NCBI RefSeq assembly: GCF_024362485.1
Contig: NZ_CP101456.1
Span: 1,860,001-1,924,000 of the forward strand
Origin: Natronobeatus ordinarius
GTDB lineage: Archaea > Halobacteriota > Halobacteria > Halobacteriales > Natrialbaceae
Reading direction: 5' to 3'
DNA length: 64,000 nt
The stretch's first letter is position 1. Every line of letters begins with the position of its first letter. Shown piece after piece: positions 17,284-48,191 of this stretch. The translations under genes were made by a program, and so were the position numbers. The notes beneath the pieces are model-generated. The model was given only the letters and a program-made list of their open reading frames with translations, did not search any database and was not told the origin of the DNA.

Positions 17284-18324
17284 CTACAGTCCGGGCCGTC
17301 GCCGCCGTCGGCGATCCTCGAGCAGCCGTCGACAGAGTCGACCCGGGCCGCCCTCGAGCGGCCAGTCGCGGGTCCGCCAGGCGGGCGGCTCGGGTTCGAA
17401 GGCGGGACACGAGCCGGCACACTCAGCAGCCGTCTGGCACCGCCCTTTCGACGCACAGCGTGGGACCAGGCCGTTCAGGTCCCGAAGCTCGAAGTGGCGA
17501 CAGTCGGGACGCATCGTCTCGACGAACGACCGCCAGCCGCGCTCGTAGGCGCGCTCGGCGATCCCGAGGCGGAGTTCAGTCTTCTCCGCCGGGTCGACGT
17601 ACTCGAATCGGGCGGCGGAGGCGTCCCGGTCGCCGCCCGTCGGTCGCTCGAGGATGTGCGTCCCTGGCTTCTCGACCGAAAGCGTCCGTGGGTACCAGGC
17701 GACGTCCGCTTCGAGTGTTTCAGGCTCGAGGGTCAGGATGCCGGCTTCGACGGGAAGGTCCTCGAACAGGACCGGCTCGACCCGCTCGCCCGTCGCACGG
17801 GTCGCGACCCAGACCTCGTCGGCGAGTGCCAGCGCGACGTCGAACTCGAGCTGTGGCCGGAGGTCGCGGGCGGCGGCCGCGTCGAGGTCGGGTTTGTTCT
17901 CGATCGCGATCACCCGCTCGAACCAGTCGGGGTAGGCCCACCGCCGGCGGATCTCGATGCGGTTGCCGTTCCGGCGAGTCTCGAGGATCCCCCGGTCGTC
18001 GGCGCGGTGGATCGCCTCACGGACGTACCGCCACGAGTAGCCCGGCTCTGGCAGCGCGTCGCGGTAGTAGGCCCACTCCGCGGGCGCGTTTCGGATCACG
18101 TGCCGGAGGTCGCTATCGAGGCGTTCGGGGCCGAATCGCGCCCGTTTACGCAGGCCGTCGGGATCGCACTCGAGGACGATCGTATCCCATCGGCGCCGTT
18201 TCGTCCCGAGCTGGCGGGCGACGAGGACGGCCCCGGACGAGCGGTCGTCGGGCGGCCACGCCAGTTCGGCCCACCGGCAGCTCCGCAGTTCGAAGCCGAA
18301 CTCGGTGTCGGAGCCGTCGATCAC
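17284..18324 (-). CDS. Conserved haloarchaeal protein, DUF5787-like
   Basis: This roughly 346-residue protein resembles haloarchaeal DUF5787 proteins. The region near residues 160-200 (I-A-I-E-N-K-P-D-L, then L-E-F-D-V-A-L-A-L-A-D-E-V-W-V-A-T) looks like a restriction-endonuclease-like core with the E-N-K triad part. The C-terminus has a four-Cys cluster C-x5-C-x5-C-x3-C near residues 300-320 that may bind zinc or an FeS cluster. Nucleic-acid cleavage is only a structural guess. GTG at 18324 begins the segment that matches the family N-terminus; ATG at 18399 would add 25 residues. Confidence 0.65.
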   Translation of the reverse strand: MIDGSDTEFGFELRSCRWAELAWPPDDRSSGAVLVARQLGTKRRRWDTIVLECDPDGLRKRARFGPERLDSDLRHVIRNAPAEWAYYRDALPEPGYSWRYVREAIHRADDRGILETRRNGNRIEIRRRWAYPDWFERVIAIENKPDLDAAAARDLRPQLEFDVALALADEVWVATRATGERVEPVLFEDLPVEAGILTLEPETLEADVAWYPRTLSVEKPGTHILERPTGGDRDASAARFEYVDPAEKTELRLGIAERAYERGWRSFVETMRPDCRHFELRDLNGLVPRCASKGRCQTAAECAGSCPAFEPEPPAWRTRDWPLEGGPGRLCRRLLEDRRRRRRPGL

Positions 18325-18399: not shown

Positions 18400-18971
18400 A
18401 TGGTTCGAGCATCGAATTCGATGGGCGCGCCAATACGGTTAGGTTAGGACCGCCCCAACGATCGACGTACCGTCCGTCGTGTTCACCTCGATGCCATCAA
18501 CGGACGGGGGGTAATACGGCCACGCGGCCGGCCGGTCAGGCACCGGCCCCACCGCTTACCGATACCGCTCGAGCCGGCCTCCGGCCTCGCTGTCGGGGCG
18601 AGCGTCGAATCGGTCGCCCACTCAGCCAGTCGACCGAACGGCTGCCGTCGACTGCTCACCGATCCGTTGCGGACGACGGCGCTCGAGCGGACGGGTTTCT
18701 CATACGGTCTATTGTGATTCGTTACCGGTGATCGCTGACCCGTTCGAGCGATCACCGGTAAAACGTTACAATAATCCGTATCACAGGACACCGTGACGAC
18801 GTCCGGTCACCGGTACTCGTCTGACACTCGTCGTGCGATAGTCTGACACACGTTTATGCCACCACAAGCCCAATGGCTCACCCAGGCGCGCAGAGTCGGC
18901 GGTTCAGCTCCCATCCTCCTCCGGCGCGCGCCTGCTCTTTCACGATAACGTCTCCATCTCGTAGGCCGCGA
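18400..18971. other. Long gap between two same-strand genes; holds palindromic element copy 1
   Basis: No gene could be supported in these 572 bases: the open frames present lack recognisable domains and overlap each other. The one structured item is the 80-base palindrome at 18702-18781. An A/T box near 18850 (CGTTTATG) has no convincing downstream gene. Confidence 0.6.
18702..18781 (+). repeat. 80-base palindromic element, copy 1
   Basis: The element begins ATACGGTCTATTGTGA and ends TTACAATAATCCGTAT. Its core arms TTACCGGTGATCGCT (18722-18736) and AGCGATCACCGGTAA (18747-18761) are perfect 15-base inverted repeats around a 10-base loop, and the outer 20 bases on each side pair imperfectly. 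An 80-base copy lies at 47450-47529 in the opposite orientation and a diverged 89-base relative at 39522-39610. It looks like a small non-autonomous repeat (MITE- or REP-like). Confidence 0.85.
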
Positions 18972-19622
18972 TCACTGTACCGCCGAGCGGACGTCGTCGA
19001 TGCTGCTGGTCTCTGCGATGACCGCGAGTTCGTCACCGGCGGCCAGCTCCGTCCCCGGCAGCGGTATCGTCAGCGGTTCACGATCGTGTCCGTGGGCGTA
19101 GACGCGCGCCGACTCGGGCAACTCGAGTTCGCTCAGCCGTTTGCCGACCGCGGACGACTCCGCGCCGACCTCGAGGACGGTGAGCTGTAAGTCCGCGGCG
19201 AGGTCGGCGACGACGTTGAAGTCGCCGCCGAGCAGGGCCGTTTTCGCCCCCGCGGCGCCGAGTCGTTCCGGATAGACGATGTCGTCGACCTCGTCCGCGT
19301 ACGTCTCGTAGATCTCCTCGCGGTAGTCCTCGTCGATGCGCAGGACGGTCCGACAGCCGTGGTGGTTGCCGACCATGCAGGCGGCGAAGTTCACGTTGAG
19401 GTCGGGCGTGAACGCGCCGATCGCGTCGGCGTCGGCGACGCCGGCCTCGAGGAGCACCTCCTCGTCGTCGCCGTCGCCCCGGACGGCCTCGAAGCCGTCG
19501 GTCTGGATGCGTTCGATGCGATCGGGATCGTTGTCGACGACGACGACGTCGTGACCCTCGCCGTCGAGAATTCGGACCGTCCGCGAGCCGACCCGGCCGT
19601 ACCCAACGATAACGAACTTCAT
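18972..19622 (-). CDS. trkA: TrkA-type potassium channel/transporter regulatory protein
   Basis: This 216-residue protein has an RCK_N Rossmann domain with the nucleotide motif V-G-Y-G-R-V-G-S at residues 6-13 and the acidic strand-2 end D-N-D near residue 32. A C-terminal RCK_C ligand domain follows (about 140-216). Such proteins bind NAD(H) or ATP and gate TrkH/KtrB potassium uptake, central to the salt-in strategy of haloarchaea. No membrane partner is adjacent. Divergent from the permease gene with 229 bases between. Confidence 0.87.
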   Translation of the reverse strand: MKFVIVGYGRVGSRTVRILDGEGHDVVVVDNDPDRIERIQTDGFEAVRGDGDDEEVLLEAGVADADAIGAFTPDLNVNFAACMVGNHHGCRTVLRIDEDYREEIYETYADEVDDIVYPERLGAAGAKTALLGGDFNVVADLAADLQLTVLEVGAESSAVGKRLSELELPESARVYAHGHDREPLTIPLPGTELAAGDELAVIAETSSIDDVRSAVQ

Positions 19623-39343: not shown

Positions 39344-39521
39344 GTCCACCACCTTCGGGAACGACCAGTATCATCGTTCGGGTCACGAACTGCTCGCTTC
39401 GCTCTCTGTGTTGCGAATTAACAAACCAATCCATGGTTTTGCGCCAGTGTTCTTCAGAGGCTGACAAAGATGAGGTGATGACTACGCAATGTGAGTCTTG
39501 CACAAGGTACCGGTCCGATTG

Positions 39522-39610
39522 ATAATGACGGTTGTAACTGTTTACCGGTGATCGCCCCACCGGGACGGCGATCACCGGTAAGAGACTAAAGAGACTACAA
39601 CCATCGTTAT
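39522..39610 (+). repeat. 89-base palindromic element, diverged copy 3
   Basis: The core arms TTACCGGTGATCGC (39542-39555) and GCGATCACCGGTAA (39568-39581) match the other two copies, but the loop is 12 bases and the outer arms differ: ATAATGACGGTTGTA pairs with TACAACCATCGTTAT apart from two positions. The right arm carries a 9-base insertion with a repeated GAGACTA. The compensating changes in both outer arms suggest the base-paired form matters or that both ends are co-selected. Confidence 0.8.
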
Positions 39611-39694
39611 GAGACGACTGCGACCGCTCCGGTTCGTCAGTCGGACCGAAACCCCGCAGCCGACGCTGTCTCTACCACAGTAACTATTGGAAGC

Positions 39695-39739: not shown

Positions 39740-41053
39740 ATGGATCTGAACAGACGGGGAGTTCTCGCTGGTGCGGGAGTCGCGGGCGTTGGTGCTCTCG
39801 GGTTCGGGTACTGGCAGCGCCGGCGAATCAGACGCTTCTCCGAGATCAGCGACTTCCGCGACATCGCAGGCATCGAAGTGCCACAGATCCAAGCGGACCC
39901 CGTTATCACGATGCCACTGCTCGAATCGGCATACAACCGGACAGTCGATCGGTTCGACGAGATCGAACCACGCCTCGAGCCCCCACTCGATCGGTACTCC
40001 ATGGAGTTCGTCGAGGAGCTTCGGGGGCAACTCAGTGACGAGGCACCCGACCGTGTAACCATCTCGTCTCGTGTTCCAGCTTATGGAGCGCCCGCGATGC
40101 ACGCTGCTCGTCGCCAGACACTGTCCCTGTACCACATCCGGCGGTCACGTCTCGTCTCGGTCCTCGCTTACAACTCGCCCGGAGAACTGCCGCCCGAAAC
40201 CTTCGAGGAGGACGCGGTGACCGTGCGCGAGCGCATCGAGTCTCTGACAGTCCCATACCGGGGGAGAACGCTTGGGGAAGCGATTATGCGTGGGGCGACC
40301 ATTGAGTGGGCGATTGGCAGAGCCGAAAACCGCCTCGAACGTGCAAAAGAAGAAGACGACTACCCTGCTCAGTGGCGCGATCTCGAACGGGCCACGGCGG
40401 CGATCGAAGACGCCGAATCGTTCGTCCAAGCCCGGGACGGGTCGGACTACGCCGATGACTTGCCGACAGTTACCGAACGAGTCGTGAACGAATTCGAGCA
40501 CCGCCAAGAGGAAGCACCCGAGGAACTCCTCCAGGATACTTCCGTGGGAGAAGAACCTGTCCCGTCGTTCGCCAGTTCAGCAATTGCGTCGGCCCAACGA
40601 TCAATGCGGCTTCTCGGCGCATCACCATCTAGCAGACGTGGCCTGCCCGAAGACGGCAACTACGGACAGACCGTTCTCACGTACGCACTGTTACTTCCGA
40701 CTGTGTCGCTGTACGAGGCCTTTGCCGACGTTCCTCACGTTTCCTACTGGGAGGAACTCGAGTACGAACGTGGAGCCACTCCCGAAGCGTTACGCGCAGA
40801 AAAAACCGCGACTATCGATGCCGTTGCACCGCATTTTGAGGCCGACGATCCACTGGTCGCTCACCTCGCTACGGTTCCGCTCGGCGTCGTTCGGGATGCT
40901 GATAGCCGATTGCAAACGCTGATCGACGATCCGCGCGAGTTCGATGACACCGAGTGGGCGAAGCGACGCGGACAGGTACTCCTCCAGTACGAAAGCGCAC
41001 GCCGATACGCCGAGGCGATCGACGAGCCGATCGACATCATAACCGAGCTGTAG
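39740..41053 (+). CDS. Orphan protein with N-terminal twin-arginine-like anchor, unknown function
   Basis: I do not recognise this 437-residue protein. Its N-terminus (M-D-L-N-R-R-G-V-L-A-G-A-G-V-A-G) is a twin-arginine-type signal or anchor without a lipobox Cys. The rest is mostly helical and charged, with few Cys and no enzyme motif. The gene is less GC-rich than its neighbours and is flanked by A/T-rich DNA and by a palindromic repeat, which suggests accessory origin. GTG at 39722 is an alternative start. Confidence 0.7.
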   Translation: MDLNRRGVLAGAGVAGVGALGFGYWQRRRIRRFSEISDFRDIAGIEVPQIQADPVITMPLLESAYNRTVDRFDEIEPRLEPPLDRYSMEFVEELRGQLSDEAPDRVTISSRVPAYGAPAMHAARRQTLSLYHIRRSRLVSVLAYNSPGELPPETFEEDAVTVRERIESLTVPYRGRTLGEAIMRGATIEWAIGRAENRLERAKEEDDYPAQWRDLERATAAIEDAESFVQARDGSDYADDLPTVTERVVNEFEHRQEEAPEELLQDTSVGEEPVPSFASSAIASAQRSMRLLGASPSSRRGLPEDGNYGQTVLTYALLLPTVSLYEAFADVPHVSYWEELEYERGATPEALRAEKTATIDAVAPHFEADDPLVAHLATVPLGVVRDADSRLQTLIDDPREFDDTEWAKRRGQVLLQYESARRYAEAIDEPIDIITEL

Positions 41054-46563: not shown

Positions 46564-47442
46564 GTGACGAACCAACCGACGCTCACGAGCACGCGACGCG
46601 GACTCCCCGCGCTGAAAGCTGCGCTCCTCGTGGCGGTCCACAGTAATTTCTTCATCTCGCTTGCTGCCACGAGCGTGGCCGTCACGACGATCGTCCTCGC
46701 CGGATTTCGCCTCGAGGTCGTGCCGCTGTTCATCGTGTTCACGGTCACGCTGTTCGTCTACAGCGTCAACCGGCTGACGGACTTAGCGGAGGACGAGCGA
46801 AACGTCCCGGGCCGAGCGGCGTTCACGCGACGATACGGGCGGCTGTCACTGGCGCTGGGCGTTCTCGGCTATCTGGTCGCGATCGCGCTGGCGATCGCCT
46901 GGGGGCTGCCGCTGGCTGGCTTCCTGGTGCTCCCGCTGCTCGTCGTGCTGCTGTACTCGACGCTCCAGCTGAAACAGGTCTTCCTCGTGAAGAACCTCGT
47001 CGTCGGCGCCGCCTGGGGAGTGATCCCGCTGGGCGTCGGCGTCTACTTCGGTGACCTCTGGCGACTCGAGATCCTGTTTCTCGCCGCGCACGTCGGCGCC
47101 ATGATCACGGTCGCGGCGGTGATCTTCGACGTGAAGGACATCGAGGGCGATCGAGCGGAGGGCATTCGGACGGTGCCGAACGTCTACGGGCCGCGGGCGA
47201 CGCGGATCGTCAGCCAGGCCGCGAACGTCGCCGTCGCGGTCGGCGTCGTCGCGTTCGTCGTCGCTGGTGCCCTCCCGGCGTCGTTTCTCGTCTTGCTCTC
47301 GTTTCACGGCTACGTGGGTGGCTACGTTCCGTTCGCCACGCCGGAGCGAACGCCACTGTTCTACGGGTTCGTCGTCGACGGCGAGCACGTCTTTCTGGCG
47401 GTCGTCGTCCTCACGCTGGAACTCCTCGGCGTGCTCGGTTGA
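46564..47442 (+). CDS. UbiA-family prenyltransferase
   Basis: This 292-residue protein has about nine membrane helices and the two Mg-diphosphate motifs of UbiA enzymes: N69-R-L-T-D73 and D189-x2-D-x3-D196 (D-V-K-D-I-E-G-D). It transfers a prenyl chain to an aromatic or lipid acceptor; menaquinone, haem A/O or archaeal lipid routes are all possible. The GTG at 46564 starts just before the first helix; the frame is open from 46459. The palindromic element copy 2 starts 8 bases after its stop. Confidence 0.82.
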   Translation: MTNQPTLTSTRRGLPALKAALLVAVHSNFFISLAATSVAVTTIVLAGFRLEVVPLFIVFTVTLFVYSVNRLTDLAEDERNVPGRAAFTRRYGRLSLALGVLGYLVAIALAIAWGLPLAGFLVLPLLVVLLYSTLQLKQVFLVKNLVVGAAWGVIPLGVGVYFGDLWRLEILFLAAHVGAMITVAAVIFDVKDIEGDRAEGIRTVPNVYGPRATRIVSQAANVAVAVGVVAFVVAGALPASFLVLLSFHGYVGGYVPFATPERTPLFYGFVVDGEHVFLAVVVLTLELLGVLG

Positions 47443-47449
47443 CGGACTG

Positions 47450-47529
47450 ATACGGATCATTGTAACGTGTTACCGGTGATCGCTGTCCCATCCGAGCGAT
47501 CACCGGTAACGAATCACAATAGACCGTAT
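47450..47529 (-). repeat. 80-base palindromic element, copy 2 (inverted relative to copy 1)
   Basis: Core arms TTACCGGTGATCGCT (47470-47484) and AGCGATCACCGGTAA (47495-47509) surround a 10-base loop, as in copy 1. Read in reverse complement, its first 35 bases are identical to the first 35 of copy 1. It lies between the convergent ends of the UbiA gene and the methyltransferase gene. Confidence 0.85.
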
Positions 47530-47558
47530 GACTCCTCGAGCGTTCGATCGCGCGCTGC

Positions 47559-48191
47559 TCAGCGACCGGAACGGCTCGACGCCGTCTGAAACGTCCGGAT
47601 GGTATCTTTCCGCTCTGAGGTCACGGCGACTTCGACGAAGCCCCGATCGGTGAAGATCGCGTTCCAGTCGCGGTAGTAGAGCGGGAACTCGTCGTTGACG
47701 TAGTTCACGTCGTCGGTCGATCCCGTCCGGTCGGGACCGCCTTCGTTCTCCACGGTGATGAGCAGGTCGGCCGTAATGCGCGACAGCTCGTCGAAGACCC
47801 ACTCGGCGTCCGGGTGAACGTGCTGGAGCGTCTCCACCGAGTACACCGCGTCGAACTGGTCGTCGTCGAACTCGCCGATCACGTCCTCGATCGCGCCGTG
47901 ATAGAACTCCCCGCTGGCTGCGAGGTCGGGGTAGGTTCCCTCCATCACGTCGAACGCGTCGTCGTTGACGTCGATTCCGGCGAGGGTATCGAAGCCGTGA
48001 TCGAAGAGGTGTGAGAGGTGCCGACCCGAACTGCAGCCGAGCTCGAGGACGGCCGCGTCTCGGTCGAGGAACCGCTCGAGGAGGCGGCGAACAACGTCGC
48101 TCGTCTCGTTCGGGCCGTAGTAGGCGTAGTACGCCGGGGAAAACTCGCCGGAGCGTTGCGCCCACTCGCGTCGAACGTCGGTAGAATTCAC
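47559..48191 (-). CDS. Class I SAM-dependent methyltransferase
   Basis: This 210-residue methyltransferase has motif I V-L-E-L-G-C-S-S-G-R-H near residue 43, the I-D-V-N-D-D-A acidic strand end and the V-Y-S-V-E-T-L-Q-H-V-H post II motif. It belongs to the broad UbiE/Coq5-like set; the acceptor is unknown. Start GTG at 48191, with GTG at 48200 as an alternative. Divergent from the acyltransferase gene. Confidence 0.8.
   Translation of the reverse strand: MNSTDVRREWAQRSGEFSPAYYAYYGPNETSDVVRRLLERFLDRDAAVLELGCSSGRHLSHLFDHGFDTLAGIDVNDDAFDVMEGTYPDLAASGEFYHGAIEDVIGEFDDDQFDAVYSVETLQHVHPDAEWVFDELSRITADLLITVENEGGPDRTGSTDDVNYVNDEFPLYYRDWNAIFTDRGFVEVAVTSERKDTIRTFQTASSRSGR

Follow-up and report, generated by a model that had tools for sequence, protein, structure and literature searches.

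A family of short palindromic, MITE-like elements in haloarchaea with 3-bp TGA/TCA target duplications and frequent insertion at stop codons

The locus studied here raises the question of what an 80-base palindrome between two genes of Natronobeatus ordinarius represents, and how it came to lie there. We analysed a stretch of 64,000 nucleotides around it (contig NZ_CP101456.1, positions 1,860,001 to 1,924,000; referred to as the window), for which a preliminary description had reported two such palindromes in opposite orientation, at 18702-18781 and 47450-47529. This part of the description was confirmed: both sequences as first cut are 80 bases long, their core arms are perfect over 15 bases (TTACCGGTGATCGCT / AGCGATCACCGGTAA) and flank a 10-base loop, and the first 35 bases of copy 1 equal the first 35 bases of copy 2 in reverse complement. 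Beyond base 35 the two copies diverge, owing to opposite orientations of the loop with respect to the arms. Folding of copies 1 and 2 as single-stranded DNA gave z values of -8.9 and -7.4, respectively, compared to dinucleotide shuffles, none of which (0/200) folded as well as the native sequence. Alignment with other genomic copies shifted the boundaries of the palindromes; the mobile unit is 78 bp in length (TACGG..CCGTA), and the outermost A and T of the 80-base cut are part of flanking 3-bp direct repeats (Table 1). The statement that the palindrome is present twice holds for this closely similar pair, but not beyond it, as the window contains a third, divergent copy and the genome about 68 places in total.

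Table 1. Copies of the element and their flanking target site duplications (TSD) in the window
Feature	Positions	Strand	Basis
TSD left, copy 1, TCA	18700..18702	.	sequence and family-wide direct-repeat pattern
Mobile element copy 1, subfamily 1, 78 bp, TACGGTCT end first	18703..18780	+	
TSD right, copy 1, TCA	18781..18783	.	sequence
TSD left, copy 3, TGA	39520..39522	.	sequence
Mobile element copy 3, subfamily 2 (TAATGACGGTTGTAAC... end), divergent, 87 bp	39523..39609	-	
TSD right, copy 3, TGA	39610..39612	.	sequence
TSD left, copy 2, TGA	47448..47450	.	sequence
Mobile element copy 2, subfamily 1, 78 bp	47451..47528	- (opposite to copy 1)	
TSD right, copy 2, TGA	47529..47531	.	sequence

The genes on either side of copy 1 (17284-18324 and 18972-19622) are both on the minus strand, and the copy is not at a stop codon; copy 2 is located between two convergent genes (46564-47442 and 47559-48191), near a stop codon but not on one; copy 3 is likewise located off stop codons. 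The greater length of copy 3 is due to a 9-bp internal tandem duplication (AAGAGACTA twice), which also disrupts the symmetry of its arms. The window also contains an open frame of 438 codons (39740-41053), which scores weakly for codon usage and did not match Pfam. Curated Rfam families showed no match in the region 18400-19100, up to E=1.

A covariance model built from 34 copies, with places counted at E<=1e-3, revealed the about 68 distinct element places in the 4.2-Mb genome of N. ordinarius, which fall into two subfamilies with a common core. The elements are 78-80 bp long, non-coding and bounded by terminal inverted repeats (TIRs; TACGG..CCGTA), and like miniature inverted-repeat transposable elements (MITEs) they occur in many dispersed copies. 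Within the Natrialbaceae, related elements were found in 44 out of 61 sampled genomes and 22 out of 29 genera, and they are also present in scattered genomes from eight families of the order; named carriers include Natribaculum, Natrarchaeobius, Halobiforma, Natronolimnohabitans and Salinadaptatus. Plasmids carry them as well (a plasmid of Natrialbaceae archaeon AArc-T1-2, and pHmuk01 of Halomicrobium mukohataei DSM 12286), while no copies were detected in phage records or in viral contigs, the latter searched with two patterns. Two genomes, G012 and the complete genome G154 (taken as H. mukohataei DSM 12286), contain dozens of near-identical copies at different sites, which suggests recent activity. 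In these copies the central 10-bp loop occurs in both orientations relative to the arms (12 versus 7 in G012, 19 versus 6 in G154), and the simplest reading would be that the loop is inverted via a hairpin or cruciform, either in the course of transposition or afterwards.

Several unusual arrangements were encountered. In L066:545-1566 (G000:C1, about 902790-903820) two facing subfamily-2 copies bracket a ThiF-like gene, with TGA/TGA on the outer and TCA/TCA on the inner flanks; the arrangement may have arisen by inversion between the copies, or it may form a composite unit. G012 contains 58-bp variants lacking the inner hairpin (L131:2406-2463 and L132:1438-1495) at separate sites, each with its own target duplication, and these are either mobile themselves or were trimmed through deletion at the hairpin. 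At six loci (L043, L049, L117, L193, L272, L276) an element is inserted in the terminal triplet of another, resulting in a tandem pair with a TGA or TCA in common, and near L061:1950-2025 (G000:C1, about 389600) an element end (GATCGTTGTGACGATTCACCGG-like) forms short tandem repeats 3' of a gene.

Among clean elements with TGA or TCA at both sides in three genomes, an exact 3-bp direct repeat (TGA/TGA or TCA/TCA) was present in 120 out of 126 (N. ordinarius 27/31, G012 59/61, G154 34/34), whereas the triplets were inverted rather than direct in four elements of N. ordinarius and two of G012; a single TAA duplication was found in L094. As copies with an identical interior occur with TGA/TGA and also with TCA/TCA, the triplet belongs to the target and not to the element. 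A 79-bp copy on pHmuk01 is located inside a helix-turn-helix (HTH; bacterio-opsin-activator-like) gene (L282:1350-2088; pHmuk01 69009-69747), the halves of which are annotated at NCBI as two CDS encoding separate proteins. Deletion of the 79 bp together with one TGA yields a continuous reading frame, and the gene is uninterrupted in Halomicrobium urmianum, Halobacterium hubeiense and Natrinema thermotolerans; at the sequence level, the gene in these three relatives reads as a clean empty site. For copy 2 of the window, the relatives examined showed no element at the corresponding place of either flanking gene, and the two genes were not seen adjacent to each other in relatives. The search of the genome and of related haloarchaea that the preliminary description had proposed yielded numerous copies at variable positions, with target duplications and one empty-site orthologue, in support of its suggestion of a MITE-like element.

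The joined target sequences form a 9-bp palindrome, G[A/T]C-TSA-G[A/T]C, and in half of the insertions (60/120) the target triplet is itself the TGA stop codon of a gene. The palindrome had been described as unassociated with any gene, which is thus incorrect for the family as a whole. Genes were called with a simple codon-usage model for which the window served as training set, and the placement of two copies on stop codons was confirmed in the NCBI annotation. From the non-coding TSA sites of the window, an unselected stretch, only 17% of insertions would be expected at stop codons by site counts, or 19% (8-33%) if sites are weighted by a motif learned from the non-stop insertions; we preferred this window-only null because a null derived from loci centred on insertions is rich in intergenic DNA. 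Stratified by motif score, the excess corresponds to an odds ratio of 3.3. The modelled target motif does not explain it, and either targeting or selection could be responsible. Insertions off stop codons are distributed evenly among the three types of gap (convergent, tandem and divergent), which provides no hint that the excess results from counter-selection of insertions in promoters.

The enzyme moving these elements was sought through their ends. In N. ordinarius and G012, TIR searches matched short elements alone among the loci read, and in the complete genome G154, with at least 35 copies, 69 out of 69 TIR matches are located within elements of about 78-80 bp, with no autonomous partner. 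Loci with PF01609 matches were examined in four genomes (loci were available for 30 of the 51 matches), and none showed a pair of element ends. Individual candidates were rejected: the gene between the facing copies in L066 is ThiF-like; a lone TIR in L124 is not an IS end but a shortened element adjoining an SDR gene; a TIR near a transposase in L160 is a fragment of an element next to an IS; the lone ends in G154 are all short elements, some of them decayed; and an IS5-family element in G014 differs in its ends (TGCTCTGTTGAA-type) and in its duplication (8 bp). The autonomous source is possibly extinct or acts in trans. As in MITEs derived from IS5 or PIF/Harbinger elements, there is a 3-bp TNA duplication (TGA or TCA, TAA in one case) in a palindromic target, and by analogy the transposase is probably IS5/PIF-Harbinger-like. 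The ends are not shared with any intact IS5-type (PF01609) transposase element read, and the family was therefore not filed as a member of this group.

We thus favour, with a probability of roughly 0.88, a MITE family of 78-80 bp that is moved in trans by a DDE transposase at TSA palindromes and generates a 3-bp duplication. Consisting nearly entirely of terminal inverted repeat, the element would have no space for a gene and would be non-autonomous. A DDE-type transposase provided in trans would bind the inverted ends and move the element, and the target G[A/T]C-TSA-G[A/T]C would be cut with a 3-nt stagger, leaving TGA/TGA or TCA/TCA as direct repeat. Where a gene ends in GAC-TGA and this serves as the target, duplication of the triplet would preserve the TGA and leave the protein intact; because the gene keeps its TGA, insertions at stop codons should be harmless to the protein. 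The palindrome could extrude as a hairpin or cruciform, by which the central 10-bp loop would flip over time. We consider it conceivable, albeit improbable, that the responsible enzyme is instead a stand-alone, host-encoded (domesticated) DDE transposase which favours stop codons as safe sites, in analogy to REP/RAYT systems but with target duplication.

The abundance of copies on stop codons, above the prediction from the motif, and the ability to form a hairpin in whichever orientation would also agree with elements of mobile origin that have been retained at gene ends as terminators or mRNA stabilisers, their place at the stop codon being selected. This is unlikely, as the other half of the copies, including all three in the window, is located off stop codons and evenly spread over the different types of gaps, and the orientation of copies at stop codons is not significantly biased (22 versus 13). 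In addition, no T-run is part of the element, and archaeal termination depends mainly on U-tracts. The preliminary description had considered a protein-binding repeat as an alternative to mobility. Indeed, the core ACCGGTGATCGC...GCGATCACCGGT is conserved above the remainder of the element across subfamilies, and a site with two-fold symmetry could bind a dimer. A nucleoid or regulatory repeat held at fixed positions by selection is nevertheless a very improbable explanation and is not needed: positions differ between relatives, no fixed landmark positions were seen, many related genomes lack the element, insertion is evident from the target duplications and the empty site, and it may be the transposase that binds the conserved core. 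Least probable of all is a hairpin of the REP/PATE type which a Y1 transposase (IS200/IS605 or RAYT) would move in single-stranded form. The strong hairpin, the frequent location at gene 3' ends, the lack of an autonomous copy (as in REP/RAYT systems) and the abundance of PATEs in Haloquadratum (PMC3119063) are in its favour. However, Y1 transposition produces no target duplication, yet TGA/TGA and TCA/TCA flank internally identical copies, the empty site differs by exactly the element plus 3 bp, and the ends of the element are true terminal inverted repeats, a feature absent from PATEs.

A MITE family with a TGA duplication would have a simple route to safe sites in a gene-dense genome. For genome annotation this implies that such palindromes after stop codons should be regarded as insertions instead of evolved terminators; an element can also split a gene, as in the case of the HTH regulator on pHmuk01. 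The family spans several haloarchaeal families, and with many near-identical copies in the cultured H. mukohataei both the enzyme and the stop-codon excess are accessible to experimental testing. No description of the family was found in the literature searched, which covered few subscription journals and not ISfinder.

Among known systems, REP elements with RAYT and PATEs are extragenic palindromes as well, situated close to the 3' ends of genes and not linked to a transposase, but in contrast to the family described here they have neither target duplications nor terminal inverted repeats. PIF/Harbinger and IS5-type elements and Tourist-like MITEs share with it a 3-bp duplication surrounded by a palindromic target. 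IS1031-type elements generate TNA duplications. For PIF/Harbinger, a 3-bp target duplication is described in PMC2213677. In the present family, however, the duplication is TGA/TCA and not TTA/TAA, no transposase is linked, and kinship is suggested only by analogy. SMR-A and SMR-B of Haloquadratum walsbyi belong to the same size class (80-110 bp), have terminal inverted repeats unlike those of any known transposon, and their mobilising enzyme is not known either (PMC3119063). SMRs, though, consist of inverted repeats without target duplication and mostly strike other mobile elements (PMC3119063), whereas our elements show a 3-bp duplication and hit intergenic palindromes and stop codons. Prokaryotic MITEs, including those of H. 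walsbyi, are likewise short and gene-less, are bounded by terminal inverted repeats, occur in many copies, and show target duplications as well as empty sites (PMC10969869, PMC3119063); the term "stop codon" is absent from the text of the review (PMC10969869). Different from these MITEs, almost the whole element is a single palindrome, the searches revealed no parent transposon sharing its ends, and one insertion in two hits a TGA stop codon exactly.
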